The translations under genes and the position numbers were made by a program. This document shows, piece after piece, positions 14,990 through 33,521 of a stretch of 64,000 nucleotides of DNA. The notes under the pieces were generated by a model, which saw only the letters and a program-made list of their open reading frames with translations, was not told the DNA's origin and searched no databases. The DNA is from Streptomyces venezuelae (lineage in GTDB: Bacteria > Actinomycetota > Actinomycetes > Streptomycetales > Streptomycetaceae). Within the stretch, counting starts at the first letter, position 1; the number at the start of each line of letters is the position of its first letter. Location: NCBI RefSeq assembly GCF_008642295.1, contig NZ_CP029190.1, forward strand, positions 6,617,501 to 6,681,500. The letters run 5' to 3'.

Positions 14990-15031
14990 GGGGAACTCCG
15001 ATCGTGCGCTGGGTCTCCGCCACTCTGACAC

Positions 15032-15049
15032 TGACTGGAAATTCAGTCA
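15032..15049. promoter_or_regulatory. TetR-type operator box 1
   Basis: TGACTGGAAATTCAGTCA, an 18-base palindrome differing at one base from box 3. It lies 43 bases before the start of exported deiminase 1 and overlaps the stop codon of the upstream tetR gene, so the deiminase can have its own regulated promoter. Confidence 0.75.
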
Positions 15050-15661: not shown

Positions 15662-15703
15662 TGTGTTCCCTCCTGGCCGTGTGCGTCTCGCCCGGTCCCA
15701 TAC

Positions 15704-15721
15704 TGACTGAAAATTCGGTTA
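15704..15721. promoter_or_regulatory. TetR-type operator box 2 (divergent tetR pair)
   Basis: TGACTGAAAATTCGGTTA, matching the TGACTGAAWTTTCAGTCA palindrome except at two positions in one arm. It sits between the divergent tetR genes, 43 bases before regulator A and 88 before regulator B, the expected place for autoregulation. Its weaker match suggests lower affinity than boxes 3 and 4. Confidence 0.68.
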
Positions 15722-15808
15722 GCAGCACGCCAGTGCGCCGCACCTCCGGTATTCCCGGGTTGCGGGCCGCCGGTCCCTGTGCCGGAACGCCCCGGTAAGG
15801 TGCGGGTC

Positions 15809-16435: not shown

Positions 16436-16448
16436 TCCGAACACGCAC

Positions 16449-16475
16449 CGTCCCGTCCGCTCGGCGGACGGGACG
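16449..16475 (+). terminator. Terminator after tetR B
   Basis: Perfect 12-base stem CGTCCCGTCCGC (16449-16460) with GCGGACGGGACG (16464-16475), loop TCG, followed by TTTCA. It lies 14 bases after the tetR B stop and insulates the regulator from the deiminase 2 transcript. Confidence 0.8.
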
Positions 16476-16493
16476 TTTCACTGTCCCATCTAT

Positions 16494-16511
16494 TGACTGA
16501 ATTTTCAGTCA
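16494..16511. promoter_or_regulatory. TetR-type operator box 3
   Basis: TGACTGAATTTTCAGTCA, the best palindrome of the four boxes. It is exactly 40 bases (about four helical turns) upstream of box 4, so two repressor dimers would bind on the same face of the helix before deiminase 2. Confidence 0.82.
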
Positions 16512-16533
16512 GTGCCACAGTGCGCTCAGGCCT

Positions 16534-16551
16534 TGACTGAATTTTCAGTCG
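16534..16551. promoter_or_regulatory. TetR-type operator box 4 with overlapping promoter
   Basis: TGACTGAATTTTCAGTCG, identical to box 3 except for the last base. TTGACT at 16533-16538 can serve as the -35 element and AAGACT at 16557-16562 as the -10, spacer 18 bases, so the repressor would cover the -35 region. The start codon of deiminase 2 is 40 bases downstream. Confidence 0.78.
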
Positions 16552-16590
16552 GGTGGAAGACTCCCCTCCACGCCGAGAAATGAGACACCG

Positions 16591-17601: not shown

Positions 17602-17697
17602 CCGGAGAACCGGAGAACCGGCCGTTCCCGGCGGTCCGCCCCGGCGGTCCGCCCGCTCCTCCAGCACCGCATCCCTCACGGAAAAGAGAGCGCGACG

Positions 17698-19368: not shown

Positions 19369-20324
19369 GCTTCCTCCGATTCGCCGTACGCCGGCTCGCG
19401 GAGATGGCCGCCACCCTCCTCGCCGCCTCGTTCGTGGTGTTCGGCGCCATGTACCTGGCACCGGGCAGCCCGGCGAGCTTCCTGCTCGCCGGCCGCTCGG
19501 CCTCCCCGGAGGCCCTCGCCGCGGTCAACGCCCAGTACCACCTGAACGACCCGTTCCTCGTACGGTACTTCCGCTGGCTCGGCGACGTGGTGCACGGCGA
19601 CTTCGGGCGCTCCCTCACCTACCGCACCGATGTCTCGCGCCTCCTCGCGGACCGGCTCCCCGTCACCCTGCTGCTGATCACCATGGCCCTCGCCGTGGTC
19701 GTGGCGGTCGGTCTGCTGCTGGGCCGGACCGCCGCCGTCCGCGGCGGCGCCACCGACTCCGGCATCCTCGTCGGCACCACCCTCGCCGTGGGCACCCCGT
19801 CCTTCGTCGCGGCCGTCCTGCTCCAGGGCCTCTTCGCGGTCCGGCTCGGCTGGTTCCCCAGCAGCGGCGCCGGCGACGGCTTCACCGACATGCTCTGGCA
19901 CCTCACCCTCCCCGCGATCGCCCTCGCCCTCTACCTGATCGGCATGCTCGCCCGGGTCACCCGCTCGGCCATGCTCGAAGCCCTCGACAGCGAGCACGTC
20001 ACCGTGGCCCGCAGCCGCGGAGTCCCCGAACGCCAGGTCATCCGCCGCCATGTCCTCCGCAACTCCCTCGGCACGGTCCTGACCACCGGCGGACTGATCG
20101 TCTCCACCCTGCTGGTGTGCACCATCCTCGTGGAGACCGCGTTCAGCATCGGCGGCATCGGCCAGCTGCTCGAACTGTCCACCACCACCAAGGACTTCCC
20201 GACCGTGCAGGCGATCTCCCTGATCATCGTCGCCCTCTTCATGACCGTGAACCTGATCGTGGACCTGCTGCTCCCGCTGGTCGACCCGCGGGTCAGCCTC
20301 GGCACCAGGGGGGCCGCCGCGTGA
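19365..20324 (+). CDS. ABC transporter permease, DppB type
   Basis: Membrane protein of 319 residues with about six segments and the DppB-like N-terminus FLRFAVRRLAEMAATLLAASF followed by APGSPASFLL. The EAA-type loop is VTVARSRGVPERQVIRRHVLRNSLGT (about 215-240), which docks on the ATPases. The GTG at 19365 overlaps the binding-protein stop by four bases; the very long frame further upstream is only an overlap with other genes. Second gene of the importer operon. Confidence 0.93.
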   Translation: MSFLRFAVRRLAEMAATLLAASFVVFGAMYLAPGSPASFLLAGRSASPEALAAVNAQYHLNDPFLVRYFRWLGDVVHGDFGRSLTYRTDVSRLLADRLPVTLLLITMALAVVVAVGLLLGRTAAVRGGATDSGILVGTTLAVGTPSFVAAVLLQGLFAVRLGWFPSSGAGDGFTDMLWHLTLPAIALALYLIGMLARVTRSAMLEALDSEHVTVARSRGVPERQVIRRHVLRNSLGTVLTTGGLIVSTLLVCTILVETAFSIGGIGQLLELSTTTKDFPTVQAISLIIVALFMTVNLIVDLLLPLVDPRVSLGTRGAAA

Positions 20325-21187
20325 CCGCCGCCTCCGCCCCCGCCCTCGCCCGTCGGCCCGGTCTCTCCCGGATCCGCGCCACCGGCTCCCCGCTCCACCT
20401 CGTCTGCCTGGCCCTGGTCGCGCTCGTCGTGCTCGCCGCCCTCCTCGCACCCTGGCTGGCACCCCACGACCCCAACGCTGTCGACCTGGGCACCGCCCTG
20501 GCCGCACCCTCCGCCGCACACCCGCTCGGCGTGGACGCCGCCGGCCGGGACACCCTCTCCCGCCTGCTGCTCGGCGCCCGCACCTCGCTGCTCGGCCCGC
20601 TGGGCGTGGTCGCCTTCTCCACCGTCGCCGGCATCGCCGTCGGGATGGCCGCGGCCTGGCGGGGCGGCTGGCTCGACTCCGTCCTCTCCCGCAGCACCGA
20701 GCTGGTCTTCGCCTTCCCCGGCATGCTGCTCGCCATCCTGATCATCTCCGTCTACGGCGAGGGCCTGCTCGCCCCCGTCATCGCCCTCGCCGTCGCCTAC
20801 CTGCCCTACGTCAGCCGCCTGACCCGGTCACTGGTCCTCGCCGAGCGGGAGCGCCCGTACGTGAGCGCCTACCGGGTCCAGGGCCACTCGGCGCTCCAGA
20901 TCTGTCTGCGCCACATCCTGCCCAACATCGCCCCCGTCGTCCTCGCCCAGTCCACCATCAACTTCGGCTACGCCCTCATGGACCTCGCCGGACTGTCCTT
21001 CCTCGGACTCGGCGTCCCCGCGCTCACGCCCGACTGGGGCCGCATGGTCTTCGACGGGCAGACCGCCGTCCAGCACGGCTACCCGCTGTCCGCGGTCCTG
21101 CCCTGCGTCTTCATCGTGCTGACCGTGGTCGCCTTCAACGTGGTGGGCGAACGGTGGGCGGACCGCATAGCCAGGAGAGCACGATGA
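20321..21187 (+). CDS. ABC transporter permease, DppC type
   Basis: Membrane protein of 288 residues. DppC hallmarks are APHDPNAVDLGTALAAPSAAHPLGVDAAGRDTLSRLL (key part HPLGVDAAGRDTLSRLL, about 60-78) and the EAA loop YVSAYRVQGHSALQICLRHILPN (key part GHSALQICLRHILPN). The GTG at 20321 overlaps the DppB stop by four bases (GTGA) and fixes the start. It pairs with the DppB-type subunit to form the channel. Confidence 0.93.
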   Translation: MTAASAPALARRPGLSRIRATGSPLHLVCLALVALVVLAALLAPWLAPHDPNAVDLGTALAAPSAAHPLGVDAAGRDTLSRLLLGARTSLLGPLGVVAFSTVAGIAVGMAAAWRGGWLDSVLSRSTELVFAFPGMLLAILIISVYGEGLLAPVIALAVAYLPYVSRLTRSLVLAERERPYVSAYRVQGHSALQICLRHILPNIAPVVLAQSTINFGYALMDLAGLSFLGLGVPALTPDWGRMVFDGQTAVQHGYPLSAVLPCVFIVLTVVAFNVVGERWADRIARRAR

Positions 21188-22188
21188 GCCCGACCGGCCC
21201 GACGCACACCCTCGACGTCCAAGGGCTGAGGGTCACCCTGCCCGGTACCGCCCGGCCCGTCCTCGACGGCGTCGACCTCACCGTCGCCCGCGGGGAGACC
21301 GTCGCCCTCGTCGGCGAGTCCGGCTCGGGGAAGTCCCTCACCTCCCGCAGCGCGCTGGGCCTGCTGCCGCCCGGCGCGGTCGTCGAAGGCACCGTACGGG
21401 TCGGCGTCGAGGATCTGTTCGCCCTGGACGCCGGCCGACTGCGCGAGGTGTGCGCCGGGCGGGTGGCCATGGTCTTCCAGGACCCGCGCGCCGCCGTCAA
21501 CCCGCTGCGCCGCATCGGCGACTTCCTCACCGAGAGCGTCACCCTCACCGGTGCCGTGAACCGGCGGGAGGCCACGTCCCGGGCGGTCGAGCTCCTCGAA
21601 GCCGTGGGCCTGGACGCGTCCGTCCTGCGGAAGTATCCCGGCCAGGTCTCCGGGGGCATGCTCCAGCGCGTCGTGATCGCAGCGGCCCTGATGGGGGACC
21701 CCGAGCTCCTGCTGGCCGACGAACCCACCACGGCGCTGGACGTCACCAGCCAGGCCGAGGTCATCGCCCTGCTGGCCGGACTCCGCGAACGCTTCGGCAC
21801 CGGCCTGCTGTTCGTCACCCACGACCTCGACCTCGCCGCCGCCATCAGTGACCGCGTCTACGTCATGTACGCCGGTCGGATCGCCGAGACCGGCCCGGCC
21901 CAGGTCCTCTTCAGCCGCCCCCGGCACCCGTACACGGCCGCCCTGCTGGCCTCCACCCCGCGGATGGACGGCCCCAGGGGCCGGCTCGCCGCCATCCACG
22001 GCCAGCCGCCCGACCTGCGGGAACCCCTGCACGGCTGTGCCTTCGCCGCCCGCTGCCCGCTCGCCACCGAGGTCTGCGACCAGCGGGCCCCGGAGCCGGC
22101 CGCGGCCCCGGACCGGCCGGAGCACCGGGCCGCCTGCCACCACAGCGACCGGCTCGAAAGGAGCACCGCCGATGTCGTCGACGTCTGA
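21184..22188 (+). CDS. ABC transporter ATP-binding protein, DppD type
   Basis: Cytoplasmic ATPase of 334 residues. Walker A is [10 protein letters not shown] (about residues 39-48), signature VSGGMLQR, Walker B LLLADEPTTALD, and the H-loop FVTHDLD. The C-terminal oligopeptide-transporter extension has the Cys motif CAFAARCPLATEVC (about 290-304), which often binds an iron-sulfur cluster in this family. ATGA overlap with the DppC stop gives the start. It acts with the DppF-type partner. Confidence 0.94.
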   Translation: MSPTGPTHTLDVQGLRVTLPGTARPVLDGVDLTVARGETVALVGESGSGKSLTSRSALGLLPPGAVVEGTVRVGVEDLFALDAGRLREVCAGRVAMVFQDPRAAVNPLRRIGDFLTESVTLTGAVNRREATSRAVELLEAVGLDASVLRKYPGQVSGGMLQRVVIAAALMGDPELLLADEPTTALDVTSQAEVIALLAGLRERFGTGLLFVTHDLDLAAAISDRVYVMYAGRIAETGPAQVLFSRPRHPYTAALLASTPRMDGPRGRLAAIHGQPPDLREPLHGCAFAARCPLATEVCDQRAPEPAAAPDRPEHRAACHHSDRLERSTADVVDV

Positions 22189-23047
22189 GACGAACGCACT
22201 GGAAGTCAGGGGACTGCGCCGGTCCTTCGGGGCCGTCCGTGCGGTGGACGACGTGTCCTTCGTCCTCCCCGAGGGCGGATCGCTGGGCATCGTGGGGGAG
22301 TCCGGCTCCGGCAAGAGCACCACGGCCCGCATCGTCGTCGGGCTGGAGCAGGCCGACGCGGGGGAGGTGCTCGTACGGGGCCGGGCCCGGACGGGACGCG
22401 CCCGCGGACGGGCCGCCCGGCTGGCCCGCGCCCGCGAGATCCAGATGGTGTTCCAGGACCCCTATCTCTCCCTCGACCCGCGCACCGGCGTCGAGGCGGC
22501 CCTGCGCGAGACGCTCAGCCTGCACTTCCCCGGCCGCGACCCTGCCCGGCGGATCCGTGAACTGCTCGACCAGGTGGGCCTGGGCAGCCGGGCCGCCGAC
22601 GCCCTGCCGCGGCAGCTTTCCGGCGGCCAGCGCCAGCGCGTCGCCATCGCCCGGGCCCTCGCCGTGGAACCGGCCGTCCTGGTCCTCGACGAGGCGGTCG
22701 CCGCGCTCGACGTCTCCGTACAGGCGCAGATCCTCAATCTGCTGGCCGACGTCCGGGAACAGACCGGGGTCGGGTACCTCTTCATCACCCACGACCTCGG
22801 GGTCGTCCGGTGCGTCACCGACGAGATCGTCGTGATGCGCCACGGCGCCGTGGTCGAACAGGGCGGCACGGCGGAGGTCCTGGCCGCTCCCCGGCACCCG
22901 TACACCCGGCTGCTGCTGGATTCGGTGCCCCGCCCGGGCTGGGATCCCCAGGCGATCGCCGCGGCGCGCCGGGCACTCCAGGGCTGTCCTGCGCCAGGTC
23001 CGGCGACCGCCGGGTCCAGCGGAACGCCGCAGCTTGGTCAGTTGTGA
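22172..23047 (+). CDS. ABC transporter ATP-binding protein, DppF type
   Basis: ATPase of 291 residues. Walker [11 protein letters not shown] is near residue 38, signature LSGGQRQRV, Walker [12 protein letters not shown] (Ala-Val replacing the common Pro-Thr) and H-loop FITHDLG. It lacks the full C-terminal Cys cluster of DppD (only one Cys in LQGCPAPG). The ATG at 22172 has AAAGGAG eight bases upstream and overlaps DppD by 17 bases; a longer frame starting at 21848 lies inside dppD and is rejected. Confidence 0.93.
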
Positions 23048-23112
23048 CCCTTCGGTCAACCCCGCAGCCAGGCGGGGGAGTCGGTATCCCCAAGGAAGAC
23101 CAGGAGACCCCC

Positions 23113-24273
23113 ATGAACGATCACGCAGCACACCCGCCCGCCGAGGGCGCGGGCATGGGCCGGCGCAGGTTCCTGGCGGCGGCCGGCCTCACCGCCGCCG
23201 CTGCCGCGCTCGCGGCGGCCGAGGGCCGGGCCGGGGCGGCCCCCCGTACGGCTCCTGCGGCGGTGGGCACCTTCCGGGTGCCGATCGAGGACGTCCGCCA
23301 CACCCGCACCTGGATGGCCTGGCCGGACAGCAGCTCGATCTGGGGCGGCAAGCTGAGCGGCGTCCAGTCGGACATCGCCCTGATCGCCCGCACCATCGCC
23401 AGGTACGAGCCGGTCTACCTGTGCGCCAACCCCGGCAGTGCCGCCAAGGCCCGCTCCCTGTGCGGCCCGGCCGTCACCGTCATCACCACCATCCCCGTCG
23501 ACGACTGCTGGATGCGCGACACCGGCCCGGTCTTCCGTACCGACGGGGCGGGCGGGCTGGACGCGGTCGGCCTGAGTTTCAACGGCTGGGGCAACAAGCA
23601 GGCGCACGCCAAGGACACCCTGGTCGCCGGCCGGATCGCCGGCCACGTCGGCGTCCCGTTCACCGTGGCCGGCCTGGTGGGCGAGGGCGGCGCGGTAGAG
23701 CAGGACGGCGCCGGCACCCTGATGGCCACCCGCAGCAGTCTCGTCAACAAGAACCGCAACCCCGGCATGTCGCAGAGCCGGATCGAGGCCGCGCTGTGCA
23801 CGGCCTACGGCGCGACCAAGGTCATCTGGTTCGACGGCGTGTACGGCCAGGACATCACCGACGACCACGTCGACGCCACCTCCCGCTTCCTCGCCCCCGG
23901 GAAGGCCCTCGTCCAGATGCCCCTGGCCTCGGACAACGACGTCTACGCCAAGGACGCCCGCCAGCAGTTCCAGATCCTGTCCGGAGCCACCACCGCGGGC
24001 GGCACCCGGATGACCGTCGAGAAGCTCCAGGGCCCCGACTACGACAAGATCCGCTCTACCCACCCGGACTTCCTGGCCTCGTACGCCAACTACTACGTGT
24101 GCAACGGTGCCGTCATCAGCGGCCAGTTCGGCGACACCCGGGCCGACGCCGCGGCCAAGGCCACGCTGACGCGCCTCTTCCCCGGCCGCGTGGTCGAACA
24201 GCTCAACATCGACCGCCTCGGCACCGGCGGCGGCGGAGTCCACTGCGTCACCCAGCAGCAGCCGGCCGCCTAG
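23113..24273 (+). CDS. Exported agmatine/peptidylarginine deiminase paralogue 3
   Basis: Third deiminase of the island (386 aa). The N-terminus [20 protein letters not shown] is a clear twin-Arg Tat signal, with probable cleavage after GAAPRTAPA. Catalytic motifs are intact: [13 protein letters not shown] (Asp), [22 protein letters not shown] (His) and [11 protein letters not shown] (nucleophile Cys). AGGAG lies seven bases before the ATG. It follows the ABC operon by 65 bases in the same direction and may belong to the same transcript. As an exported enzyme it should act on substrates outside the membrane, unlike paralogue 2. Confidence 0.92.
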
Positions 24274-24318: not shown

Positions 24319-24352
24319 TTGCACATATATTGCAGTTGCAGAAGCAAGGCAG
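24319..24352. promoter_or_regulatory. Tandem Nur-like 6-5-6 boxes before tsaD paralogue
   Basis: Two abutting 17-base units. Unit 1 is TTGCAC-ATATA-TTGCAG (24319-24335) and unit 2 is TTGCAG-AAGCA-AGGCAG (24336-24352). Both fit the tTGCaa-N5-ttGCAA pattern described for Nur, the nickel-responsive Fur-family regulator of Streptomyces coelicolor. A -10-like TATATT (24326-24331) lies inside unit 1, and the ribosome-binding site starts at 24353, so bound repressor would block initiation. The same double arrangement occurs at 29604-29637 and 32914-32947. Confidence 0.75.
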
Positions 24353-24365
24353 AAGGAGGCGTGCT

Positions 24366-25439
24366 GTGGGCGGACCGGTAGTGCTGGGAATCGAGTCCTC
24401 GTGTGACGAGACCGGTGCGGGGATCGTGCGCGACGGAAAGCTGCTCGCCCACGTGGTGGCGTCGAGCATGGACGAGCACGCCCGGTTCGGCGGGGTGGTC
24501 CCCGAAATCGCGGCCCGCGCCCACCTCCAGGCGTTCAACCCCGTCGTCCGGCAGGCCCTCGACCAGGCCGGACTGCGGCTCGGCCAGCTCGACGCCATCG
24601 CCGTCACCACCGGACCCGGACTCTCCGGAGCCCTCCAGGTGGGCCTGGCCGGCGCCAAGTCCCTGGCCTACGCGGCCGGACTGCCGCTGTACGGGGTGCA
24701 CCACCTCGCCGGGCACGTGGCCGCCGACACCCTGGAGCACGGCCCGCTGCCCAACCCGTGCATGGTGCTGATCGTCTCCGGCGGCCACACCTCGCTGCTG
24801 CTCGTACGGGACCTCGTACGCGATCCGATCCTGCACCTGGGCGACACCGTGGACGACGCGGCCGGGGAGTGCTTCGACAAGGTGGCACGGGTCTTCGGCC
24901 TGCCCTACCCGGGCGGCCCGGCCATCGACCGGGCCGCCCGCGGGGGGAACGGCTGCGCGGTGGCCTTCCCGCGCCCCCTCACCCGTGCGGGTGACGCCCC
25001 GTACGCCTTCTCCTTCTCCGGACTGAAGACCGCCGCCGCCCGCTGGGCCGAGCAGCACCGCATCCGGGGCGAGGAGATCCCGGTGGCCGACGGCGCCGCC
25101 TCGCTCCAGGAGGCCATCGCGGACGTGCTCACCCGCAAGGCGCTGGCCGCCTGCCGGGAGTACGAGGTGCGCACGCTGGTCGTGGTCGGCGGAGTGGCCG
25201 CGAACTCGCGGGTGCGGGCTCTGGCCGAGGAGCGGTGCGCCGCCGCCGGTGTCGAACTGCGGGTGCCCCCGCTGACGCTGTGCACCGACAACGGGGCGAT
25301 GATCGCCGCCGTCGGCGACCTGCTGGTGCGGGCGGGCTCGGAACCCGCGCAGCTCGACGTCTCGATCGACCCGTCCGCGCCACTGGAGTACGCCGCCCTG
25401 CACCCGGTGGCCCGCGCCGCCGCCCCCCTTCCCGCCTGA
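24366..25439 (+). CDS. tsaD: TsaD/Kae1-family protein, stand-alone paralogue
   Basis: ASKHA-fold protein of 357 residues of the family that transfers the threonylcarbamoyl group to A37 of ANN-decoding tRNAs. Motifs are complete: [13 protein letters not shown] at the N-terminus, [12 protein letters not shown], the metal-site HHLAGH (about 118-123), [10 protein letters not shown], and [10 protein letters not shown] with the third metal ligand Asp (near 305). In streptomycetes the housekeeping tsaD usually sits with tsaB, rimI and alr; none of these is here, so this is probably a second copy. AAGGAGG precedes the GTG. It is convergent with the MATE gene (26 bases apart) and shares its operator type with the RiPP and importer operons. 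It may be an alternative t6A enzyme for metal starvation or a tailoring enzyme; neither is proven. Confidence 0.88.
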
Positions 25440-25465
25440 CGCCGCGGCCCGGACGCGACGCGGCC

Positions 25466-26836
25466 TCAGGCGAGGTCCGCCTGCGGGGCCTTCGGCGGGC
25501 CGGCCCGCTGCGCCGGGTCCTTGCCCGCGAACCGCTTCCGGTACCGCGGGACCAGCAGTGCGCAGTACAGGACGGCGAAGGAGGTCCATGCCAGGTACAG
25601 GCCGGGCAGGCCGAGACCGGCGTGCACGCCCAGCAGCCACCCGAGCGGGATGAGCAGCAGGTAGTCGCTGGTCACGGAGGCGACCAGGACGGCCCGGGTG
25701 TCCCCGGCGGCGCGGAGCAGCGCGGCGTACGCCATGCCGGCTGCCAGCGGCGCCATGCTCAGCAGGGCCACCGGGGTCGCACCCCAGGCGCGTTCCGCGA
25801 CCACGGGGTCCGAGGTGATCCGGTCCAGCAGGACCGGGCCGAGGGCGAGGGCCGAGGCCGAGGGCAGGGCGAGCATCAGCAGCAGGAGCCTGAGGCCCGT
25901 CGGATGCCAGGACCGGGCGCCCCGGGTGTCGCCCCGGCCGAGTTCCTGGCCGGCCAGGATGGTGATCGCCGTGGATGCGGAGCCGAGGAAGGTGAACACG
26001 ACGAGGGTCAGGTTGTCCACGATCCGGTACGCGGCGAGATCGTGGGTGCTCATGCGGGCGGCGAAGCCCGCCATCAGGGCCTCGTTGACGTAGCCGATGC
26101 CGAGCGTGGTCATCTCGGGCCAGCCGATCCGCCACAGCCGCCCGGCCTCGGCCCGGGTGGCTTCCGCCGCCTCCGCGGAGTCCCCGGCGGCGCGCGGCAG
26201 CCGGCTCCGGCAGTACACCAGCAGGAAGCCGGTCCCGGCTGCCGTGGCGGCGAGGGTGGAGAACGCGGCCCCGGTCACGCCGAGGCCCGCACGGAAGATG
26301 AACAGCAGGCCGAGCGGGAGGTTCACCAGGTTGACGAGCAGCGCCGTGTACATCGCCGCCCGGGTCGCCCCGGTCCCGGCGCAGGCGGCCTGGAGGGTGA
26401 AGGACACGGCGGCGAAGGGAACGGCGAGCGCCAGGATGCGCAGATAGCCGGTTCCCGGCCCGAGGACCTCGCCGGCCGCGCCCAGAGCCCTCAGGGCGTA
26501 CGGCGCCGCCGCGTACAGGACGGAGCCGAGGGCCGCTCCGGCGGCCACGGAGGTGATCAGCCCGGTGCGTACGACCCGGCCGACCTCCCCGCTCCGGCCG
26601 GCGCCGTGGCACCGGGCCACCCGGACCTGGACCGCCGTGGCCCAGCCGCGGACGACGATCAGCGCGACGAAGTACACGGGCGCGGCGAGGGCGAAGGCGC
26701 CGAGGGCGTCGGTGGACACGCGGGCGAGCATGAGCGTGTCGACGATGTTGACCGCGACCTGGGTCAGTCCGGCCACGAGCAGCGGGCAGGCCAGGACCCA
26801 TGCGCCGCGGAGCGTGGGGCGGGCGGGACCGTTCAC
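25466..26836 (-). CDS. MATE-family multidrug/metabolite exporter
   Basis: Integral membrane protein of 456 residues with twelve predicted segments in two homologous halves, typical of MATE. Half 1 begins LRGAWVLACPLLVAGLTQVAVNIVDTLMLA; the second half begins WRIGWPEMTTLGIGYVNEALMAGFAARM (key landmarks ITQ-like GLTQVAVN and GWPEMTTLG). The GTG at 26834-26836 overlaps the oxidoreductase stop by four bases (GTGA), so it is the last gene of the peptide-ycaO operon. It would use an ion gradient to export the matured peptide. Longer upstream reading frames in this register are overlap with ycaO. Confidence 0.9.
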   Translation of the reverse strand: MNGPARPTLRGAWVLACPLLVAGLTQVAVNIVDTLMLARVSTDALGAFALAAPVYFVALIVVRGWATAVQVRVARCHGAGRSGEVGRVVRTGLITSVAAGAALGSVLYAAAPYALRALGAAGEVLGPGTGYLRILALAVPFAAVSFTLQAACAGTGATRAAMYTALLVNLVNLPLGLLFIFRAGLGVTGAAFSTLAATAAGTGFLLVYCRSRLPRAAGDSAEAAEATRAEAGRLWRIGWPEMTTLGIGYVNEALMAGFAARMSTHDLAAYRIVDNLTLVVFTFLGSASTAITILAGQELGRGDTRGARSWHPTGLRLLLLMLALPSASALALGPVLLDRITSDPVVAERAWGATPVALLSMAPLAAGMAYAALLRAAGDTRAVLVASVTSDYLLLIPLGWLLGVHAGLGLPGLYLAWTSFAVLYCALLVPRYRKRFAGKDPAQRAGPPKAPQADLA

Positions 26837-27855
26837 AGAGCGGCCTGGGCGGCTTCCAGCAGCTCGGGGTCGCGGTCGAGGAGGATCAGGGTGTCCACCC
26901 GGGAGTCCTTCCAGGCCAGGATGCGGTCGACGATGGCGGGAATCGGTCCCGGCAGGGCGACCTCGTCGAGCAGCGAGTCGGGGACGGCCGCCACGGCATC
27001 CGGCCGGTGGCCTTCCGCCAGGTGCCGGCGGATGGTGTGGGCCGGGCCCTCGTACCCCATCCGGCAGGCCACGTCGAAGTAGGTGTTCCGGCCACCCGGT
27101 CCCACCGCGCCGATCAGATGCGCGAACAGCGGGCGGAGCCGGTCGCGGCCCTCCTCGACCGTCTCGGCGCGGGCCACGTAGACGATGGGGCTGATCTTCA
27201 TATCGGCGGGGGTGCGGCCGGACCGGCGCAGGCCCGTGTCCAGCGGCCGGGTCAGGGCGGCCTCGTGTTCCGGCGCGTAGAAGCCCGCCAGCCAGCCGTC
27301 GGCGATCTCGCCGGTCAGCTCGACGTTGCGCGGCCCGATCGCCCCGAGATACAGGGGGAGGTCCGGACGCAGCGGCCGGATGTCGGCCTTCACCGGTCGG
27401 GCGGTGCCGCTGGAGCCGGGGCCCCGGTAGGGCAACTGGTAGATGTCGCCGACGTGTTCGACACGCTCGGCGTGCTCGATGGCCTTGCGGACGATCGTGA
27501 CGTACTCGCGGGTGCGTTGCAGCGGGCGGGAGTACGGGCGGCCGTGCCAGCCTTCGACGATCCACGGGACGGACAGGCCGAGGCCGAGCTGGAACCGGCC
27601 GCCCGAGAGCACGTCCAGCGTCATGGCGGTCATCGCGGTGGCGGCCGGGGTGCGCGCCGGGATCTGCATGATCGCGGTGCCGAGCTTGAGGTGTTCGGTG
27701 GTCGCGGCGAGGTATCCGAGGACGCTGACGGCGTCGGGGCCGTACTCCTCGACGCTCCACACGGAGTCGATGCCGATCCGGTCGGCGTGCCGGACGATGG
27801 GGAGGATCTCTTCGACGGGTTCTCCGCCGTAGCCCAGGGCGAGCCCGAGACGCAT
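26833..27855 (-). CDS. LLM-class (F420-dependent type) oxidoreductase
   Basis: Luciferase-like monooxygenase-fold protein of 340 residues. Landmarks are RLGLALGYGG at the N-terminus, ADRIGIDSVWSVEEYGPDAVSVLGYLA (key part GIDSVWSVEEYG), TAIMQIPARTPAATAMTAMTLD (key part PARTPAATAM), SGGRFQLGLGLS and PLYLGAIGPRN. These are typical of actinobacterial F420-linked members. GAGGAG precedes the ATG. It stands 39 bases after ycaO and overlaps the MATE gene, so it is probably a peptide-modifying redox enzyme, for example oxidising or reducing a heterocycle. F420 versus FMN use cannot be settled from sequence. Confidence 0.9.
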   Translation of the reverse strand: MRLGLALGYGGEPVEEILPIVRHADRIGIDSVWSVEEYGPDAVSVLGYLAATTEHLKLGTAIMQIPARTPAATAMTAMTLDVLSGGRFQLGLGLSVPWIVEGWHGRPYSRPLQRTREYVTIVRKAIEHAERVEHVGDIYQLPYRGPGSSGTARPVKADIRPLRPDLPLYLGAIGPRNVELTGEIADGWLAGFYAPEHEAALTRPLDTGLRRSGRTPADMKISPIVYVARAETVEEGRDRLRPLFAHLIGAVGPGGRNTYFDVACRMGYEGPAHTIRRHLAEGHRPDAVAAVPDSLLDEVALPGPIPAIVDRILAWKDSRVDTLILLDRDPELLEAAQAAL

Positions 27856-27894
27856 GCGATGGCTCCTCGTGTCGAGTCGGTGTCCGACGGTTCG

Positions 27895-29298
27895 TCAGGA
27901 GAACGGAAGCGGGTCGAGGACCAGGGCGGTCGGCACGGGTGGCCGGGGGATCCAGCCGCGGGCGGCCGGCTCCCGGTACAGCCGCCGGCCGCCCAGGAAG
28001 GGGAAGGCGGCCGGGGCGTTGCAGGAGAGCCCCGGCACCAGGACGCGGGCGACGTGCAGCCCGGCCGCCCGTACCGGCGGGGGTGTGAGATCCACGGCGA
28101 TGGCCCGCAGGCCCTGGGCGTGGAGGAGGCGGAGGTACCCGCCGAGGTCCGCCGGACCGGCCGCGGCCGGCTGCCGCGTTCCGCGCAGCGGGCGCGGGGC
28201 GCGGAGCCGGTCCAGCCGGGCATCCTGCATGCGCGGGTCCAGGTACAGCTGGAGATGGAGGCCGACGTCGTTGACGTCCCGCCAGTCGGCGCGGAAGTCG
28301 TCCCGGTAGGCGCGGTCGCTGCGGTACGGCCGGTAGGGCCGGTGGTCCACCCGCCCCTGACGGACCGCGGTCCAGAAGTCGCTGCTGTGGTCGAGGAGTT
28401 CCAGGGAGGTCCCGTGCGTGCCGACCGCCTCGGTCAGCGCCTTGGCGGCGGCTGCCCGGGCGGTGCTGCGGCAGGCGCTGCCGAAGGCCGCGATGCCCCG
28501 GGCGGGATCCTCGATGAAGGCGCCGGCGACGACCACGTCCAGGGTGGAGGGGATGCGCAGCAGGGTCACGCGCAGTCCCGAGGCCGCGGCCTCCGCCAGC
28601 GCGGTCGCGAGGGCGCCGTCGCCGCCGTCGTACGGGATGTCCAGAGGGGCGGCGGGCGAGCCGCTGAGCCACCACAGGGTCACCGCATCGCGCTCCAGCA
28701 CCTCCCGTAGCGCGGCCAGCCGGGCCTCCTCCGGGCTGGTCCCGGCCGCCGTGCCCGCGAGGACCGGGTAGTTGGTGGGCGGCTGCGCCCTGCGCGCACC
28801 GCGGAAGTAGTTGACGTAGCACAGGGACGCGGGCACCCAGGTTTCCGAGCCGCTGCCCAGGTCCCGGCCGGGCGTCCAGGCGATCGGCAGATCGCGGGTC
28901 ATCGGGACGAACGGGAAGCCCCGGCGGGCGTACTGGCGGGGCGAGTACAGGGCGAACTCGGCGGGATCCACGGCCGTGCGGCCGGAGGCGGACCACCGGA
29001 TGTGACTGGCCGTCGGCAGGTCGTCCGGGACCAGGTTGGCGCAGTACCGCTCGACCGCCTCGCCCACGGCCGCACGCCGGGCCTGCTCGGCGTCGCCGAG
29101 TGCCGCACCGCCGGTGACGGTGTCGACCGCGGCCGGGCCGAGTGCGGGGTCCGCCGCGAGGTGGGCGGTGTAGGAGATACAGCTCGGCACCGTCTCCACG
29201 CGCGGACGGTCCCGGCCGACGTGGCGGATCAGGTGCAGTCCGGCGTCCGCGAGACGACCGGTGACGGTCTCGGCGACACCCGGGTTCCCGGTCACCAC
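27895..29298 (-). CDS. YcaO-domain protein, stand-alone
   Basis: ATP-dependent YcaO enzyme of 467 residues; characterised members activate peptide backbone amides to form azolines, amidines or thioamides. Nucleotide-binding motifs are seen: AVGEAVERYC (about 87-96), RLAALREVLERDAVTLWW (about 185-202) and ACRSTARAAAAKALTEAVGT (about 265-284). The C-terminus ends LVLDPLPFS, close to the Pro-rich ends important in azoline-forming YcaOs. No E1-like partner, TfuA or RRE-bearing dehydrogenase is encoded nearby, so it resembles stand-alone YcaOs such as those of bottromycin-type pathways in architecture only. The start is GTG at 29296-29298 behind GAGGAG. It follows the 39-residue peptide gene across a 148-base leader with a long hairpin. 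Confidence 0.92.
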   Translation of the reverse strand: MVTGNPGVAETVTGRLADAGLHLIRHVGRDRPRVETVPSCISYTAHLAADPALGPAAVDTVTGGAALGDAEQARRAAVGEAVERYCANLVPDDLPTASHIRWSASGRTAVDPAEFALYSPRQYARRGFPFVPMTRDLPIAWTPGRDLGSGSETWVPASLCYVNYFRGARRAQPPTNYPVLAGTAAGTSPEEARLAALREVLERDAVTLWWLSGSPAAPLDIPYDGGDGALATALAEAAASGLRVTLLRIPSTLDVVVAGAFIEDPARGIAAFGSACRSTARAAAAKALTEAVGTHGTSLELLDHSSDFWTAVRQGRVDHRPYRPYRSDRAYRDDFRADWRDVNDVGLHLQLYLDPRMQDARLDRLRAPRPLRGTRQPAAAGPADLGGYLRLLHAQGLRAIAVDLTPPPVRAAGLHVARVLVPGLSCNAPAAFPFLGGRRLYREPAARGWIPRPPVPTALVLDPLPFS

Positions 29299-29325
29299 AG
29301 CCCCACGCTCCTCGATCGGTGGTGT

Positions 29326-29369
29326 CGTGCGGTGGGAGGTGGTGACGACGCACCGCCCCCCACCGCACG
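29326..29369 (-). promoter_or_regulatory. Long hairpin between precursor gene and ycaO
   Basis: Arms CGTGCGGTGGG (29326-29336) and CCCACCGCACG (29359-29369) pair perfectly over 11 bases. After one mismatch seven more pairs (one G-U) form with 29338-29344 and 29351-29357, leaving a 6-base loop. It lies 28 bases before the ycaO start on the message. RiPP operons often carry such an attenuator after the precursor gene to make much more peptide than enzyme; that role is inferred here. Confidence 0.7.
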
Positions 29370-29375
29370 GTTGCC

Positions 29376-29439
29376 CTGTCGTTCTGTGGTTCTGTCGCTC
29401 TGTCGCTCTGTCGCTCTGTCGCTCTGTCGTTCTGTCAGT
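29376..29439. repeat. Eight tandem octamers between precursor gene and ycaO
   Basis: Eight head-to-tail octamers: CTGTCGTT, CTGTGGTT, four exact CTGTCGCT copies (29392-29423), CTGTCGTT and CTGTCAGT. On the transcript this reads as repeats of AGCGACAG. It starts eight bases after the precursor stop and ends near the hairpin arm. Short repeats like this can change copy number by slippage, altering leader length before ycaO. Confidence 0.85.
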
Positions 29440-29446
29440 CGGTCCG

Positions 29447-29566
29447 TCAGTCGTCGGAGTCCTCGACGTCCTCACGCCACTCGAACGGCGCGTCGACGGC
29501 GGGGGTGTGCGACTTCAGGCAGCCCGGCCTGGGCTCTTCCCGTTCCGCCCAACCATCGTGAGCCAT
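29447..29566 (-). CDS. Short peptide, candidate RiPP precursor (39 aa)
   Basis: Small acidic peptide starting MAHDGWAEREEPRPGCLKSH. It has 12 Asp/Glu, one Cys (16), Ser 19, Thr 21, His 3 and His 20, and an acidic end (WREDVEDSDD). The only clustered modifiable residues are in PGCLKSHTP (14-22), which may be the core; the acidic C-terminal part could be a follower. The ATG has a perfect AAGGAGG seven bases upstream, strong evidence that this short frame is translated. It is the first gene after the promoter and Nur-like boxes and is followed by ycaO. No known precursor family is recognised. Confidence 0.8.
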   Translation of the reverse strand: MAHDGWAEREEPRPGCLKSHTPAVDAPFEWREDVEDSDD

Positions 29567-29603
29567 GTGCGTCCTCCTTGAGATCGGCACACCGAGTGCT
29601 CTG

Positions 29604-29637
29604 CTGCACTCACTGTGCAGGTGCAGTGGACGTGCAA
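29604..29637. promoter_or_regulatory. Tandem Nur-like 6-5-6 boxes before the peptide-ycaO operon
   Basis: On the minus strand: TTGCAC-GTCCA-CTGCAC (29621-29637) directly followed by CTGCAC-AGTGA-GTGCAG (29604-29620), each a 17-base 6-5-6 unit. They lie immediately after the predicted -10 element, covering +1 to about +30, and end 37 bases before the peptide start codon, so binding should repress. The arrangement equals that at 24319-24352 and 32914-32947. Confidence 0.75.
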
Positions 29638-29638
29638 G

Positions 29639-29668
29639 AAGGTAGAAGCCGTGCGTCCGGATACTCAA
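29639..29668 (-). promoter_or_regulatory. Predicted promoter of the peptide-ycaO operon
   Basis: Minus strand -35 TTGAGT (29663-29668), 18-base spacer, -10 TACCTT (29639-29644). Start of transcription would be near 29632, inside the first Nur-like box. The rest of the 265-base gap to the importer ATPase gene (29567-29831) holds only a small CCGGGC-AGG-GCCCGG hairpin at 29771-29785 that may end the importer transcript. Confidence 0.55.
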
Positions 29669-29831
29669 CACCTCCCGGCGCCGGGGGTGATGGATTCGGA
29701 CACAGCCGGATTCCGCCGGTGCGGAGACCGGTGTTCCGGGCGGGACGACTGGGGCGCGGTCACCGGTTTCCCGGGCAGGGCCCGGCAGCCGGCCGGCCGA
29801 TGGTGCGGCCCCGGCTCCGCTGCCCGATCGC

Positions 29832-30707
29832 TCAGTCCTGTGGAACGGCCGGTTCTCCCCCCTCCAGTGCCGCGCCGACGGCCCGTTCACGGCCAGGCAG
29901 GACGCTGACGAAGGGCACCCCGGTGCGCGGGTGCTCGATGACCTCGGCCTCGACCTCGTACACCTCGGACAGCAGCGGGGCCGTCAGGACCTCCGCCGGC
30001 TTGCCGGTGGCGACCACGCGGCCACCGGCCATGACGCAGATCCGGTCGGAGAAGGCCGCCGCGAGGTTCAGGTCGTGCAGCGCGACGACCGCGGTCACTC
30101 CGAGCCCGCGCACCAGCCTCAGGGCGTCGAGCTGGTGGCGCAGGTCCAGGTGGTTGGTCGGCTCGTCCAGGACCATGGTCCCCGTGCACTGGGCGAGCGC
30201 GCGGGCGATCAGGACCCGCTGCTTCTCCCCGCCCGACAGATGGTCGAACGGCGCTTGGGCGAGCGCATCCACGCGGAGTTCCGCCAGCGACCGCATGATG
30301 ATGTCCCGGTCCTCCGCATCGTCCCCCGCGAAGGCCCGCTTGTGCGGGGTGCGGCCCATGGCCACCACGTCGTACACGGTCAGCTCGAAGTCCCCGGAGG
30401 TCTCCTGCAGGACGGCCGCGAGCCGCCGGGCGAGCCGTTTGCCCGGCATCCGCCACACGTCCTCGCCGTCGAGCAGGACCCGGCCCGCCGTGGGCCGCAG
30501 CGCCCGGTAGAACGTACGGAGCAGGGTGGACTTGCCGGCGCCGTTGGGGCCGACCAGCCCCACCACCTCACCGGGCGCCACGTTCAGCGATGCCTCGTGG
30601 ACCAGGGTCCTGCCGTTCACCACCACGCTGACGCCCTCGGCGTCGAGACGGCCGGCGCCGTGGGCCGGCCGCGTGGTCGGCGTGCTCGGCGTGCGCAGCG
30701 TGTTCAT
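29832..30707 (-). CDS. FecCD-type metal-chelate importer, ATP-binding protein
   Basis: ATPase of 291 residues of the siderophore/cobalamin (FecE/BtuD) class. Walker A is GPNGAGKSTLLRTFYRAL (about residues 53-70), signature LSGGEKQRVLIARAL, Walker B TMVLDEPTNHLDLRHQ and H-loop ALHDLNLAA. The start ATG overlaps the permease stop by four bases (ATGA). Annotated relatives are called B12, F420-0 or iron-chelate transporters; the substrate is not decided by sequence. It is the last gene of the importer operon, directly upstream (in map order) of the RiPP operon. Confidence 0.93.
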   Translation of the reverse strand: MNTLRTPSTPTTRPAHGAGRLDAEGVSVVVNGRTLVHEASLNVAPGEVVGLVGPNGAGKSTLLRTFYRALRPTAGRVLLDGEDVWRMPGKRLARRLAAVLQETSGDFELTVYDVVAMGRTPHKRAFAGDDAEDRDIIMRSLAELRVDALAQAPFDHLSGGEKQRVLIARALAQCTGTMVLDEPTNHLDLRHQLDALRLVRGLGVTAVVALHDLNLAAAFSDRICVMAGGRVVATGKPAEVLTAPLLSEVYEVEAEVIEHPRTGVPFVSVLPGRERAVGAALEGGEPAVPQD

Positions 30708-31804
30708 CGGGCTCCCTTGCGTCGCATCAGCCAGAGGAAGAAGGGGCCGCCGACGAGGGCGGTGAGGATGCCCACGGGGATCTCCTCCGGGCTCATGAAC
30801 GTACGGGCGGCCAGGTCGGCGGCGATCAGGAAGGCCGCCCCCAGCAGGGCCGCGGCGGGCAGCGCGCGGCGGTGGTCGGCGCCCACGAGCAGCCGCACCA
30901 CATGCGGCATGATCAGCCCGACGAAGCCGATCTGGCCGCTGACCGCGACGATCGTGCCGATCATCAGGGCGACCAGCGTGAACAGGGCGCCGCGGAACCG
31001 GTGGACGTCCAGACCGAGGGAGGCGGCGGCCTCCTCCCCGGCCAGCAGGAGGTTGAGCGGACGGCAGACACCGAGGAGCACGGCGGTGCCGAGCAGTACG
31101 GCACCCGCCGGAATCCACACCGTGGTCCAGGTGGTGCCGGCCAGGCCGCCCAGCATCCAGCGCAGCGCGGACTGCGTCTTGTGCGGGTCGTTGGAGGTGA
31201 CGATCAGGAAGCTGGCCAGCGCCGACAGCACTTCGGCCATGGCCACACCCGCCAGGACCAGCCGTACGGTCGTCATCCTGCCGCCCGAACGGGCCAGGAA
31301 GTAGACGGCGATCAGGGCGGCCAGGGCGCCGCAGAACGCGGCGACCGGCAGGGTGAACAACCCGAACGCGGTCAGGTTCAGGACCAGGACGAGCACCGCC
31401 CCGACCGACGCACCCGAGGACACTCCCAGCAGCATCGGGTCGGCCAGCGGATTGCGGACCAGCGCCTGGAGCGCCATCCCGGCCACCGACAGACCCGCGC
31501 CCACCACACCGGCCAGCAGCACCCGGGGCAGCCGGACGTCGATGACGATCGTCTCGCGCACCGGGCTCCAGGTCGGCTCGGCGAGGGCCGGGTGCACGCG
31601 GTGCAGCAGGATGCCCCACACCTGGTCGGCCGGCACGCTGATCGAGCCCGCCGCGATGCCGGCCGTGGCGGCGCAGACCACCAGGGCGCCGAGGCATGCC
31701 AGCACCAGGCCGTAGGGGAGCCCGGGACGCCGCGCCGGGCCGGGCCGGGTCTCCGTGCGGAGCTTGGTCATCCCTTCGGCCGCCGGGGCCTTCACCCCGG
31801 TCAC
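30704..31804 (-). CDS. FecCD-family importer permease
   Basis: Membrane permease of 366 residues with about ten segments, as in BtuC. Family motifs are DVRLPRVLLAGVVGAGLSVAG (key part RLPRVLLAGVVGAGL), LQALVRNPLADPMLLGVSSGAS (key part RNPLADPMLLGVSSGA, about 110-125), GQIGFVGLIMPHVVR and the EEIPVGILTALVGGPFFLWLM end. The GTG at 31802-31804 overlaps the binding-protein stop by four bases; an internal ATG at 31771 is possible but has no usable ribosome site. It forms the homodimeric channel for a metal chelate or cobalamin-like ligand. Confidence 0.92.
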   Translation of the reverse strand: MTGVKAPAAEGMTKLRTETRPGPARRPGLPYGLVLACLGALVVCAATAGIAAGSISVPADQVWGILLHRVHPALAEPTWSPVRETIVIDVRLPRVLLAGVVGAGLSVAGMALQALVRNPLADPMLLGVSSGASVGAVLVLVLNLTAFGLFTLPVAAFCGALAALIAVYFLARSGGRMTTVRLVLAGVAMAEVLSALASFLIVTSNDPHKTQSALRWMLGGLAGTTWTTVWIPAGAVLLGTAVLLGVCRPLNLLLAGEEAAASLGLDVHRFRGALFTLVALMIGTIVAVSGQIGFVGLIMPHVVRLLVGADHRRALPAAALLGAAFLIAADLAARTFMSPEEIPVGILTALVGGPFFLWLMRRKGAR

Positions 31805-32787
31805 CGGAGACGTTCCGGGTGGAGCTGCTTCGCCAGGGACTCCACGGCCGACGGCATCCGGACGCCGAGCACGGTGGAGGACAGCGGCAGCACCGCGAAC
31901 CGCTGGTTCCTGATGGCGGGGACGTCCTTGAGTGCCGGGTTGGCGAGCAGGAACTTCTTCTTGTCCTCGACGGACTGGTCGCCGTAGTCGTAGATGACGA
32001 TGGCCTCGGGGGCGCGCTGCGCCACCTGCTCGAAGGACACGTCGCCGAAGGCCTTGTCGAGGTCGGCGAAGAGGTTCACCCCGCCGGCCCGCCGGATCAT
32101 CTCGTTGCCGATGCCCTTGCCGCCCGCGGTGAACGCCGTCTTGTCGCCGCTGTCGTACACGAAGAGCTTGACCGGGGTGACGCCGGTGAGCCGGCTCTCG
32201 ACCGTGTCCAGGGTGGCGTGCAGCTTCGTCAGCCGTTCCTCGGCCCGCTCGGGCACCCCGAAGATCTTGGCGAGGGTACGGATCTCCTCGTCCATGGAGG
32301 CCACCGTGACCGGGCCGGTGGGGCACTCCTCGGTGTTGAGGTGGGTGTTGATCCCGGCCTTGGTGAAGGCGGCCCGGCTGCGGCCCTCCTTCTCGTCGAA
32401 GGTGGAGGACCACCCGCCGTAGACGAAGTCGGGCTCGGTCTCGAGGAGTGCCTCGAAGGAGGGGTACTCCTTGGAGATGACCTTCACGCTGTCGTAGGCG
32501 GCCTGGTACTCGGGGAGGATCCGGTCGTCGAGATAGCCCGTGCCCGCCATCGACTTCTCCAGGCCGAGCGCGAGCAGGACCTCGGTGGCGTGCTGGTTCA
32601 GTGAGACGGCGCGCTGCGGCGGACGCTGGTAGGTGGACTTCACCCCGCAGTTCTCGACCGTGACCGGAAAGCCCTTGGCGGTTGCGCCCGCTGACGGGCC
32701 GGCGGAGGGCGTGGTGCCGCCGCAGCCGGATATGAGCAGGGCCATGGCGAACGCGGACAGCACGGATTTCGGGTGGTTGCGGGGCAT
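31801..32787 (-). CDS. FecB/BtuF-type substrate-binding lipoprotein
   Basis: Exported binding protein of 328 residues with a class III fold. The signal ends in the lipobox ALLISGCGG (Cys near residue 23). Landmarks are PQRAVSLNQHATEVLLALGL (about 65-84), LLETEPDFVYGGWSS and FEQVAQRAPEAIVIYDYGD. GAGAGGA stands seven bases before the ATG at 32787, which is preferred over an in-frame GTG 15 bases upstream. First gene of the importer operon, behind its own Nur-like operator. Family members bind Fe-siderophores, cobalamin or F420-related ligands; a nickel or cobalt chelate is suggested here by the operator. Confidence 0.92.
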   Translation of the reverse strand: MPRNHPKSVLSAFAMALLISGCGGTTPSAGPSAGATAKGFPVTVENCGVKSTYQRPPQRAVSLNQHATEVLLALGLEKSMAGTGYLDDRILPEYQAAYDSVKVISKEYPSFEALLETEPDFVYGGWSSTFDEKEGRSRAAFTKAGINTHLNTEECPTGPVTVASMDEEIRTLAKIFGVPERAEERLTKLHATLDTVESRLTGVTPVKLFVYDSGDKTAFTAGGKGIGNEMIRRAGGVNLFADLDKAFGDVSFEQVAQRAPEAIVIYDYGDQSVEDKKKFLLANPALKDVPAIRNQRFAVLPLSSTVLGVRMPSAVESLAKQLHPERLR

Positions 32788-32913
32788 GGGTGGTCCTCTC
32801 ACCGCAGATGCATCGGATGTTCTTCACGCCTCGTCAGGGCACGGGGCCGAGCGAGGGCTTGCGGCCCGGCCCGCAGGAATCCGGCCACTCCGGTAGGCCC
32901 TCCCCGACCGCTG

Positions 32914-32947
32914 CTGCAACGTAGGGGCAACTGCAGATCGCCCGCAA
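32914..32947. promoter_or_regulatory. Tandem Nur-like 6-5-6 boxes before the chelate importer
   Basis: Plus strand: CTGCAA-CGTAG-GGGCAA (32914-32930) directly followed by CTGCAG-ATCGC-CCGCAA (32931-32947), two abutting 17-base units. The minus strand shares GGCYTTATTGC-N8-TGCAGTTGC with the tsaD site. It lies 127 bases before the binding-protein ATG; the rest of the gap 32788-33069 shows no gene, and no confident promoter hexamers were found. Confidence 0.7.
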
Positions 32948-33069: not shown

Positions 33070-33177
33070 TTAAGGCAGGTCGGTGTCCTGCCCGCTCATG
33101 ACGGGGGCGGGTGCCGAGCGGGAGTCGCCCGGACCTCTGGAAACGCACGTCATGGTGGTGGCGGTGGGGTCGGCCAC
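33070..33177 (-). CDS. Small ORF (35 aa) below the cobalamin riboswitch
   Basis: Reading frame of 35 codons starting at GTG 33175-33177 behind AAGGAGAGT, a very good ribosome site, and ending TAA at 33070. The product runs VADPTATTMTCVSRGPGDSR and ends SGQDTDLP; it has one Cys, no membrane segment and no recognised family. It starts 72 bases after the riboswitch and ends 282 bases before the importer gene, which has its own operator. It may be a regulatory leader peptide, a small protein, or the remnant 5' end of a lost riboswitch-controlled gene. Confidence 0.5.
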   Translation of the reverse strand: MADPTATTMTCVSRGPGDSRSAPAPVMSGQDTDLP

Positions 33178-33249
33178 GTCAACTCTCCTTCGCGAGTCGC
33201 GGCAGAAAGGCCCCGAGAACCGTCCTTCGGGACCCCGCATGCACCTTCG

Positions 33250-33425
33250 GCACGCGGGCAACGGGCAGGTCTTCGGACTCACGGGCACATCTCGTCGTGG
33301 ACGAGGCTCCTACTGGCCGTCGCTTCCCAGACCCGGCCGGGTCCAGTGCGTATGACGGCGGTCGTTCCCGCTCACCGCTGCGGGGCAGTCCCGGATTCCC
33401 ACCGGGTTCCCTCTTGCGACGCATC
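33250..33425 (-). ncRNA. Cobalamin (B12) riboswitch
   Basis: Minus-strand RNA element with the conserved order of the adenosylcobalamin riboswitch: GGGAACCCGGTGGGAATCC at the 5' end (near 33395-33413), GACTGCCCCGCAGCGGTGA (near 33372-33390), the central CACTGG and GGGAAGCG segments (33319-33345) and the B12 box AGTCCGAAGACCTGCC (33264-33279). A hairpin CCCGCGTGC/GCATGCGGG just downstream (about 33237-33259) may be the expression platform. The controlled frame begins 72 bases on. The remaining bases to 33521 hold the riboswitch promoter region, divergent from the phosphatase gene. Confidence 0.92.
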
Positions 33426-33521
33426 CCGCCTGGCGGACGGGGCGAACCAGCTGCGCCCCCACCCTACCCCCGCCCGAACGACGGCATGTGGCAGCAGCGG
33501 CTAGGGTGAGATGAGGAGCCT

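Follow-up and report, generated by a model that had tools for sequence, protein, structure and literature searches.

A predicted Nur-type regulon of Streptomyces venezuelae that takes in a YcaO peptide operon, a FecBCD-type importer, and a TsaD paralogue

Three double Nur-type sites in one genomic stretch

In a 64,000-nucleotide stretch of the Streptomyces venezuelae genome (NZ_CP029190.1, positions 6,617,501 to 6,681,500; this whole stretch is called the window), three double sites were found that have the form of the box of the nickel-responsive repressor Nur. Judged from the sequence, it is very probable that they are Nur operators. As shown in Table 1, they lie where a first-pass annotation of the stretch had placed them and precede the genes it had named, namely a TsaD paralogue, a peptide-YcaO-LLM-MATE operon, and a FecBCD-type importer. 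The sites, the gene families, their conservation, and a cobalamin riboswitch near the importer were computed. The regulation, the gene families, and the conservation in several genera point to a candidate ribosomal nickel/cobalt metallophore with a defined precursor.

Each site is made of two abutting 17-base units with a 17-base period, and all six units fit nTGCAn-N5-nnGCAn. The three operators had been described as identical; this is true of their architecture, while their letters differ between the sites. The published Nur box is tTGCaa-N5-ttGCAA, as given in PMC3919588, and the six units have, in order, 2, 4, 4, 3, 3, and 4 mismatches to TTGCAA-N5-TTGCAA. The first site lies 13 bases from the start of the TsaD gene (24366) and the second 37 bases from that of the peptide gene (29566). 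The third is 126 or 111 bases from the FecB gene, depending on whether the start codon is at 32787 or 32802.

Table 1. Sites, genes, and RNA element discussed in the text (window coordinates; empty cell, no strand given)
Feature	Coordinates	Strand	Assignment
Operator 1, double Nur-type	24319..24352		Upstream of TsaD paralogue; plus-strand units TTGCACATATATTGCAG and TTGCAGAAGCAAGGCAG
TsaD paralogue	24366..25439	+	TIGR03723, 403.7 (cut-off 296.1)
MATE exporter	25466..26836	-	PF01554; TIGR00797 over cut-off
LLM-class, F420-type oxidoreductase	26833..27855	-	TIGR03559, 336.6 (cut-off 335)
YcaO protein	27895..29298	-	PF02624; TIGR03604, 284.1 (cut-off 219.25); nearest solved MusD, LynD, TruD
Putative precursor peptide, 39 residues	29447..29566	-	Core KSHTPAVDAPFEW; conserved in 13 aligned relatives
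Operator 2, double Nur-type	29604..29637		Upstream of peptide operon; plus-strand units CTGCACTCACTGTGCAG and GTGCAGTGGACGTGCAA
ABC importer ATPase, FecE/BtuD type	29832..30707	-	PF00005
FecCD-type permease	30704..31771	-	PF01032; start possibly 31804
FecB-type substrate-binding lipoprotein	31801..32787	-	PF01497; start possibly 32802
Operator 3, double Nur-type	32914..32947		Upstream of importer; plus-strand units CTGCAACGTAGGGGCAA and CTGCAGATCGCCCGCAA
Cobalamin riboswitch	33247..33466	-	RF00174, 86.5 bits; upstream of operator 3 and importer

Statistical weight of the double pattern

Could three such sites have arisen by chance? Across the 7.5 Mb genome, the exact pattern TGCAN8GCAN2TGCAN8GCA matches three times, each at one of the sites in the window, and the reversed pattern, which served as a control, does not match. 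The assertion that a chance origin is unlikely is thus supported by the genome scan, which finds the exact pattern nowhere else. This rarity is post hoc, since the pattern was derived from the sites themselves. With one mismatch allowed, the genome gave 8 rows versus 2 rows for the reversed control; three places were added, in front of sodF, in front of a second TsaD paralogue gene, and in the interval separating a LuxR-type gene from an ABC exporter gene.

A blind test was based on the sodF promoters of other genomes. In a SodF search of 41 genomes of the genus, 35 had a match, and the upstream regions of 30 loci were used. A 17-mer at most three mismatches away from the Nur box is present in all 30 regions and one at most two mismatches away in 29. 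A 34-base matrix was built on 29 sodF promoters (27 unique), with the S. venezuelae sodF excluded. In the window, it ranks the three sites first, at 12.1, 6.2, and 4.95; no place in 40 simulated windows scored as high as any of them. In 7.5 Mb of simulated sequence, at least 4.9 was reached at 5 places, at least 6.2 at 4, and at least 12 at none. Thus, site 1 is strong by its matrix score, and sites 2 and 3 rest on their exact double form, their promoter position, and their conservation in other genomes.

Some observations weigh against reading all of these sites as operators. The matrix scores of sites 2 and 3 are modest, and a score of at least 4.9 was also reached at 2 places in 185 kb of real DNA, partly chosen for box-like matches, so that the score alone is not significant for these two sites. 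The single 17-base box with at most two mismatches is hardly above background (17 places in the genome against 12 for the control).

In the sodF promoter, the upstream unit overlaps TAGCGT, by eye a possible -10 element, which makes tandem binding there less certain. Both units are good palindromes at the loci L060, L064, and L068. A palindrome at C1:4402202 (L022) fits a single box; it precedes a small antitoxin-like gene (by eye) and was set aside.

Nur and its targets in the genome and the genus

The genome has four Fur-family genes, and one of the products matches PDB 3eyy along its length (residues 1-139, E 2.2e-77). This structure is S. coelicolor Nur according to PMC7055735. It was found that sodN, sodF, and the sodF-derived small RNA s-SodF are all encoded, and the sodF promoter (C1:4972664) carries a one-mismatch version of the double site. 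When at most one mismatch is allowed, the genome scan for the single box gives two places, one at the second TsaD paralogue (C1:1811538) and one at a cbiM gene (C1:3069762; PF01891). The first-pass annotation had proposed to check whether sodF and nikABCDE rank with the three sites at the top of a genome scan. By pattern search, sodF is among the one-mismatch matches; a nikA gene over the cut-off with a box was not seen, as none of the 11 NikA-like proteins is above the curated cut-off and no box was noticed at them. Thus, the member of the regulon seen here that concerns metal uptake is cbiM.

Is the double box restricted to such genes in the genus? The exact pattern gave 83 rows at 81 separate places, spread over 71 of the 199 genomes searched, and the reversed control 10 rows. 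Two genomes, S. venezuelae and G109, have three exact places. Inspection of 30 of the 81 places assigned 16 to sodF, 10 to a GNAT gene, 2 to the TsaD paralogue (TsaD2), and 2 elsewhere. The GNAT family was checked with Pfam in three of the ten loci and by eye in the others. In five of the ten, tblastn with the nikA-like gene from L040 gave a match at 26-29%; a family-5 binding protein lies beside the GNAT gene in two more, and a permease in one. A double box unrelated to nickel genes would have spoken against the idea of a nickel regulon, and the matches in the genus are chiefly sodF, GNAT/ABC, and TsaD2 promoters. At the level of sequence, the encoded Nur, the sodF site, the blind matrix, and the targets in the genus agree with one Nur-type regulon.

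The boxes might instead be used by another factor, such as an SrnR-like nickel regulator. The single units are indeed degenerate, and SrnR/SrnQ of S. griseus also represses sodF with nickel, as stated in PMC7055735. This alternative is very improbable, since the box form is that of the published Nur box (PMC3919588) and a Nur orthologue is encoded.

In S. coelicolor, Nur represses sodF and nikABCDE and acts inversely on sodN. The S. venezuelae system shares with it the regulator orthologue, the box form, the sodF site, sodN, and s-SodF. It differs by the additional YcaO peptide operon, FecBCD importer, and two TsaD paralogues, and no NikA is over the cut-off. If the predicted regulon is true, the reach of Nur would go beyond superoxide defence and nickel uptake and take in natural-product synthesis.

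The peptide-YcaO operon and its relatives

The gene system recurs in several actinobacterial genera, with the peptide, the YcaO protein, the F420-type LLM enzyme, and FecBCD, and often with the MATE exporter and a FhuF-like protein. Among 392 genomes of the genus, 9 (S. venezuelae included) have the YcaO protein at E 1e-60; it was also found at 50 loci in named genomes. A close group has eight distinct clusters, those of the window, L040, L041, L042, L048, L050, L052, and L053; L049, L051, and L054 duplicate L040, L041, and L042 and did not enter the counts again, and L055, a 3.3 kb contig, was omitted from the counts. All eight have the peptide, YcaO, LLM, and MATE genes, and seven have FecBCD.

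The precursor-like peptides have 33-45 residues and the motif HTPAVxxxFxW, of which HTPAV, F, and W are invariant in the 13 aligned sequences. A peptide profile search gave 34 protein clusters, called hypothetical or uncharacterized wherever a name is given. A double Nur-type site precedes 10 of the 13 peptide genes and ends 22-63 bases before the start codon, the site of L042 being weak (2.1). A C-terminal FhuF motif was found in five of the eight close clusters (L040, L042, L050, L052, and L053) and in the distant L067, and Pfam confirmed FhuF_C in all four proteins tested.

Many actinobacterial genera also have clusters with two YcaO genes, which make up 33 of the 50 loci (L056, L059, L061-L063, L065, L066, L069-L093, and L096). 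A FecCD match is present in 30 of them, and an HTP precursor was found in none by a search that was limited to 80 residues and called for a ribosome-site motif. In Amycolatopsis arida (L067:16479-17465), a gene with the FhuF-type motif follows a cobalamin riboswitch, slightly downstream of the YcaO, LLM, and MATE genes. Secreted proteins near L052, L057, L067, and L163 looked like transcobalamin by eye; the four tested had no Pfam match, and this assignment was dropped.

The importer and the cobalamin riboswitch

The cobalamin riboswitch at the importer (Table 1) indicates B12 or cobalt as a second input, which goes beyond the first-pass account. I surveyed the upstream regions of eight FecB genes whose products are at least 67% identical (window, L040, L041, L042, L048, L050, L053, and L064). 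A Nur-type site was found in six, with a matrix score of at least 4 in the window, L048, L053, and L064 and by the consensus only in L041 and L050. A cobalamin riboswitch was also found in six (window, L040, L042, L050, L053, and L064). Both elements are present in four loci, and none of the eight has neither. The riboswitches were called by Rfam; a regular expression missed some of them.

The Nur-type box and the beginning of the riboswitch match from Rfam overlap in L050, L052, and L053; the order differs in the window, where the riboswitch is upstream of the operator. In L052, the pair of box and riboswitch precedes the FhuF-like, peptide, YcaO, LLM, and MATE genes. The neighbours of the L040 cluster are sodF, s-SodF, and a nikA-like gene (below the cut-off), and those of the L050 cluster are a cobaltochelatase-type gene (over the cut-off) and cobO. 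A weak 35-codon open reading frame with a low coding score lies between the riboswitch and operator 3 of the window (33070-33177, minus strand), and it had no tblastn match in the eight related loci searched.

A possible nickel and cobalt metallophore

The following mechanism is proposed. In nickel-replete cells, adjacent Ni-Nur dimers would occupy the tandem 17-base boxes and prevent transcription; a shortage of nickel would induce the three units along with sodF and cbiM. B12 shortage would also favour expression of the importer via the cobalamin riboswitch. The YcaO protein would activate the peptide, probably at Ser or Thr of the KSHTP core, the F420-type LLM enzyme would probably oxidise the product, and the MATE protein would export the modified ribosomal peptide. 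Outside the cell, the product may bind nickel and/or cobalt, and FecBCD may return the complex. In the relatives, a reductive step by the FhuF-like protein would free the metal; this would fit Co(III).

The chances seem evenly balanced that the product is a nickel/cobalt metallophore brought back by FecBCD. This reading is suggested by the shared nickel and B12 control, by the exporter and the importer in one cluster, and by the partner in relatives that resembles a siderophore reductase. Metal-controlled synthesis is indicated by the operators and the riboswitches, and the link between importer and peptide is drawn from their co-location. A fuller version is put forward a little more tentatively: in actinobacteria, a YcaO-modified ribosomal peptide may serve as a combined nickel and cobalt metallophore under joint control by Nur and the B12 riboswitch, with unloading by the FhuF-like protein.

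Several results count against the metallophore proposal. One peptide homologue (P0015) has HMPAV, with Met for the Thr of HTP and the Ser kept. No Nur-type site was found at the peptide genes of L052, L057, and L067 among the 13 scanned, none of the 33 distant two-YcaO clusters has the double site at one mismatch, and the FhuF motif search was negative in the window, L041, and L048. Upstream of FecB, a Nur-type site was not seen in L040 and L042, and the sites of L041 and L050 score under 4 in the sodF matrix. In addition, the importer is nearest, below the cut-offs, to F420-0 transporter models, followed by corrinoid and heme transporters; thus, its cargo may be something else.

The main rival accepts the sites as Nur operators, takes FecBCD as a corrinoid (B12) importer, and regards the peptide as an unrelated antibiotic or signal of nickel shortage. 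The riboswitch at six of the eight importer loci, the BtuC/corrinoid-type models among the nearest ones (below cut-off), BtuF among the PDB matches of FecB, and the cobalamin genes adjoining L050 would all suit such a transporter. It is nevertheless the less likely reading, given that FecBCD accompanies the peptide genes in seven of the eight close clusters, that the riboswitch precedes the peptide operon itself in L052, and that a FhuF-like partner exists; the match to BtuF is weak as well (about 4e-8 at best, where the top match has 6e-42).

The F420-0 transporter models suggest another cargo, a precursor of the F420 on which the LLM enzyme would depend; this enzyme is itself of the F420 type over the cut-off. 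The nearest NCBIfam models of the importer are TIGR03868, TIGR03869, and TIGR03873, and all three scores are under the cut-offs (193.5 of 392.4, 304.3 of 437.35, and 274.7 of 372.4). Such a cargo would also leave the nickel and B12 control unexplained, and this explanation is very improbable.

Peptides that chelate iron are well known, and copper has a ribosomal chelator, methanobactin, with an exporter and an importer under metal control. The S. venezuelae system resembles it in having a ribosomal peptide, an exporter, an importer, and predicted metal control. It differs in its other enzymes and precursor and in the nickel and B12 control, and its MATE protein scores 29 bits against the MbnM cut-off of 285. 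Azole-forming RiPPs (ribosomally synthesized and post-translationally modified peptides; here the thiazole/oxazole-modified microcins, with SagD-like YcaO proteins, and the cyanobactins with their cyclodehydratases) are also similar, because the YcaO protein is over the cut-off of TIGR03604, MusD, LynD, and TruD are nearest, and a short conserved peptide adjoins. A SagB-type dehydrogenase is usual in azole-forming RiPPs, unlike the F420-type LLM enzyme of this operon. With siderophore uptake by FecBCD and a FhuF reductase, the system shares the FecBCD-type importer and, in relatives, a FhuF_C protein. Here, the nickel box and the cobalamin riboswitch replace iron control, the full-length FhuF models are below the cut-off, and the window cluster lacks the FhuF motif.

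Thiooxazole metallophores, named in the title of a reference within PMC13174530, also belong to the RiPP metallophores. In the open-access literature searched, no described nickel or cobalt metallophore from a ribosomal peptide was found, and nothing was recognised as the present system; one paper, PMC11278768, contains the word nickelophore.

TsaD paralogues

Three TsaD genes are encoded in the genome. A further match to the TsaD family, next to the housekeeping copy, resembles TsaB. The TsaD in the window matches the second paralogue at 89% and is 59% identical to the housekeeping copy, and both paralogues have Nur-type sites. Is this common in the genus? A TsaD paralogue is present in 73 of 295 genomes (E 1e-140). 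Of 30 TsaD2 loci taken, 28 could be oriented (L137 and L143 could not), and every one of these, the window's own included, has a Nur-type box 50-83 bases before the GIESSCDE motif. The box has at most two mismatches in 25 loci and three or four in the remaining three. In G227, a double site precedes a TsaD paralogue followed by FecB, FecCD, and FecE genes.

TsaD2 may be a nickel-starvation paralogue of the tRNA-modifying enzyme. It adjoins the biosynthetic operon under the same type of operator, and one could also imagine a self-resistance copy that shields the producer from a peptide product acting as a TsaD inhibitor. This is the most improbable of the alternatives: the paralogue is far more widespread than the YcaO protein (73 of 295 genomes against 9 of 392 at E 1e-60, in samples that overlap partly), and no close TsaD was found by tblastn in the 50 related YcaO loci, the sole match being partial at 46%.

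The second Nur-boxed TsaD gene overlaps by 4 bases an open reading frame of 1083 residues, in which an N-terminal GNAT domain is fused to a full alanyl-tRNA synthetase (L158:3192-6443, C1:1807191-1810442 in the S. venezuelae genome). A GNAT or alanyl-tRNA synthetase match lies within 1.5 kb downstream of TsaD2 in 9 of the 30 loci. If the predicted regulon is true, it also takes in translation-related paralogues, TsaD and the GNAT-fused alanyl-tRNA synthetase. In another locus (L164:9026-12988), metE with a cobalamin riboswitch adjoins a Nur-boxed TsaD2, so that nickel and B12 elements are again neighbours.

Other observations

In the window (13826-24273), three agmatine-deiminase-like genes flank a dipeptide/nickel-type ABC operon (17698-23047) that has no Nur box; the agmatine-deiminase-like copy at 23155 is below the curated cut-offs. 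Identity of these peptide-type ABC genes with nikABCDE was considered and rejected, as the NikA score is 97.7 against the TIGR02294 cut-off of 393 and no box appeared in the window scans. Elsewhere in the S. venezuelae genome, a double Nur-type site with a matrix score of 14.0 (L160:8962-8995, C1:288961-288994) is flanked by a LuxR-type gene and two ABC exporter genes, in a cluster with a condensation-like gene (all families assigned by eye).

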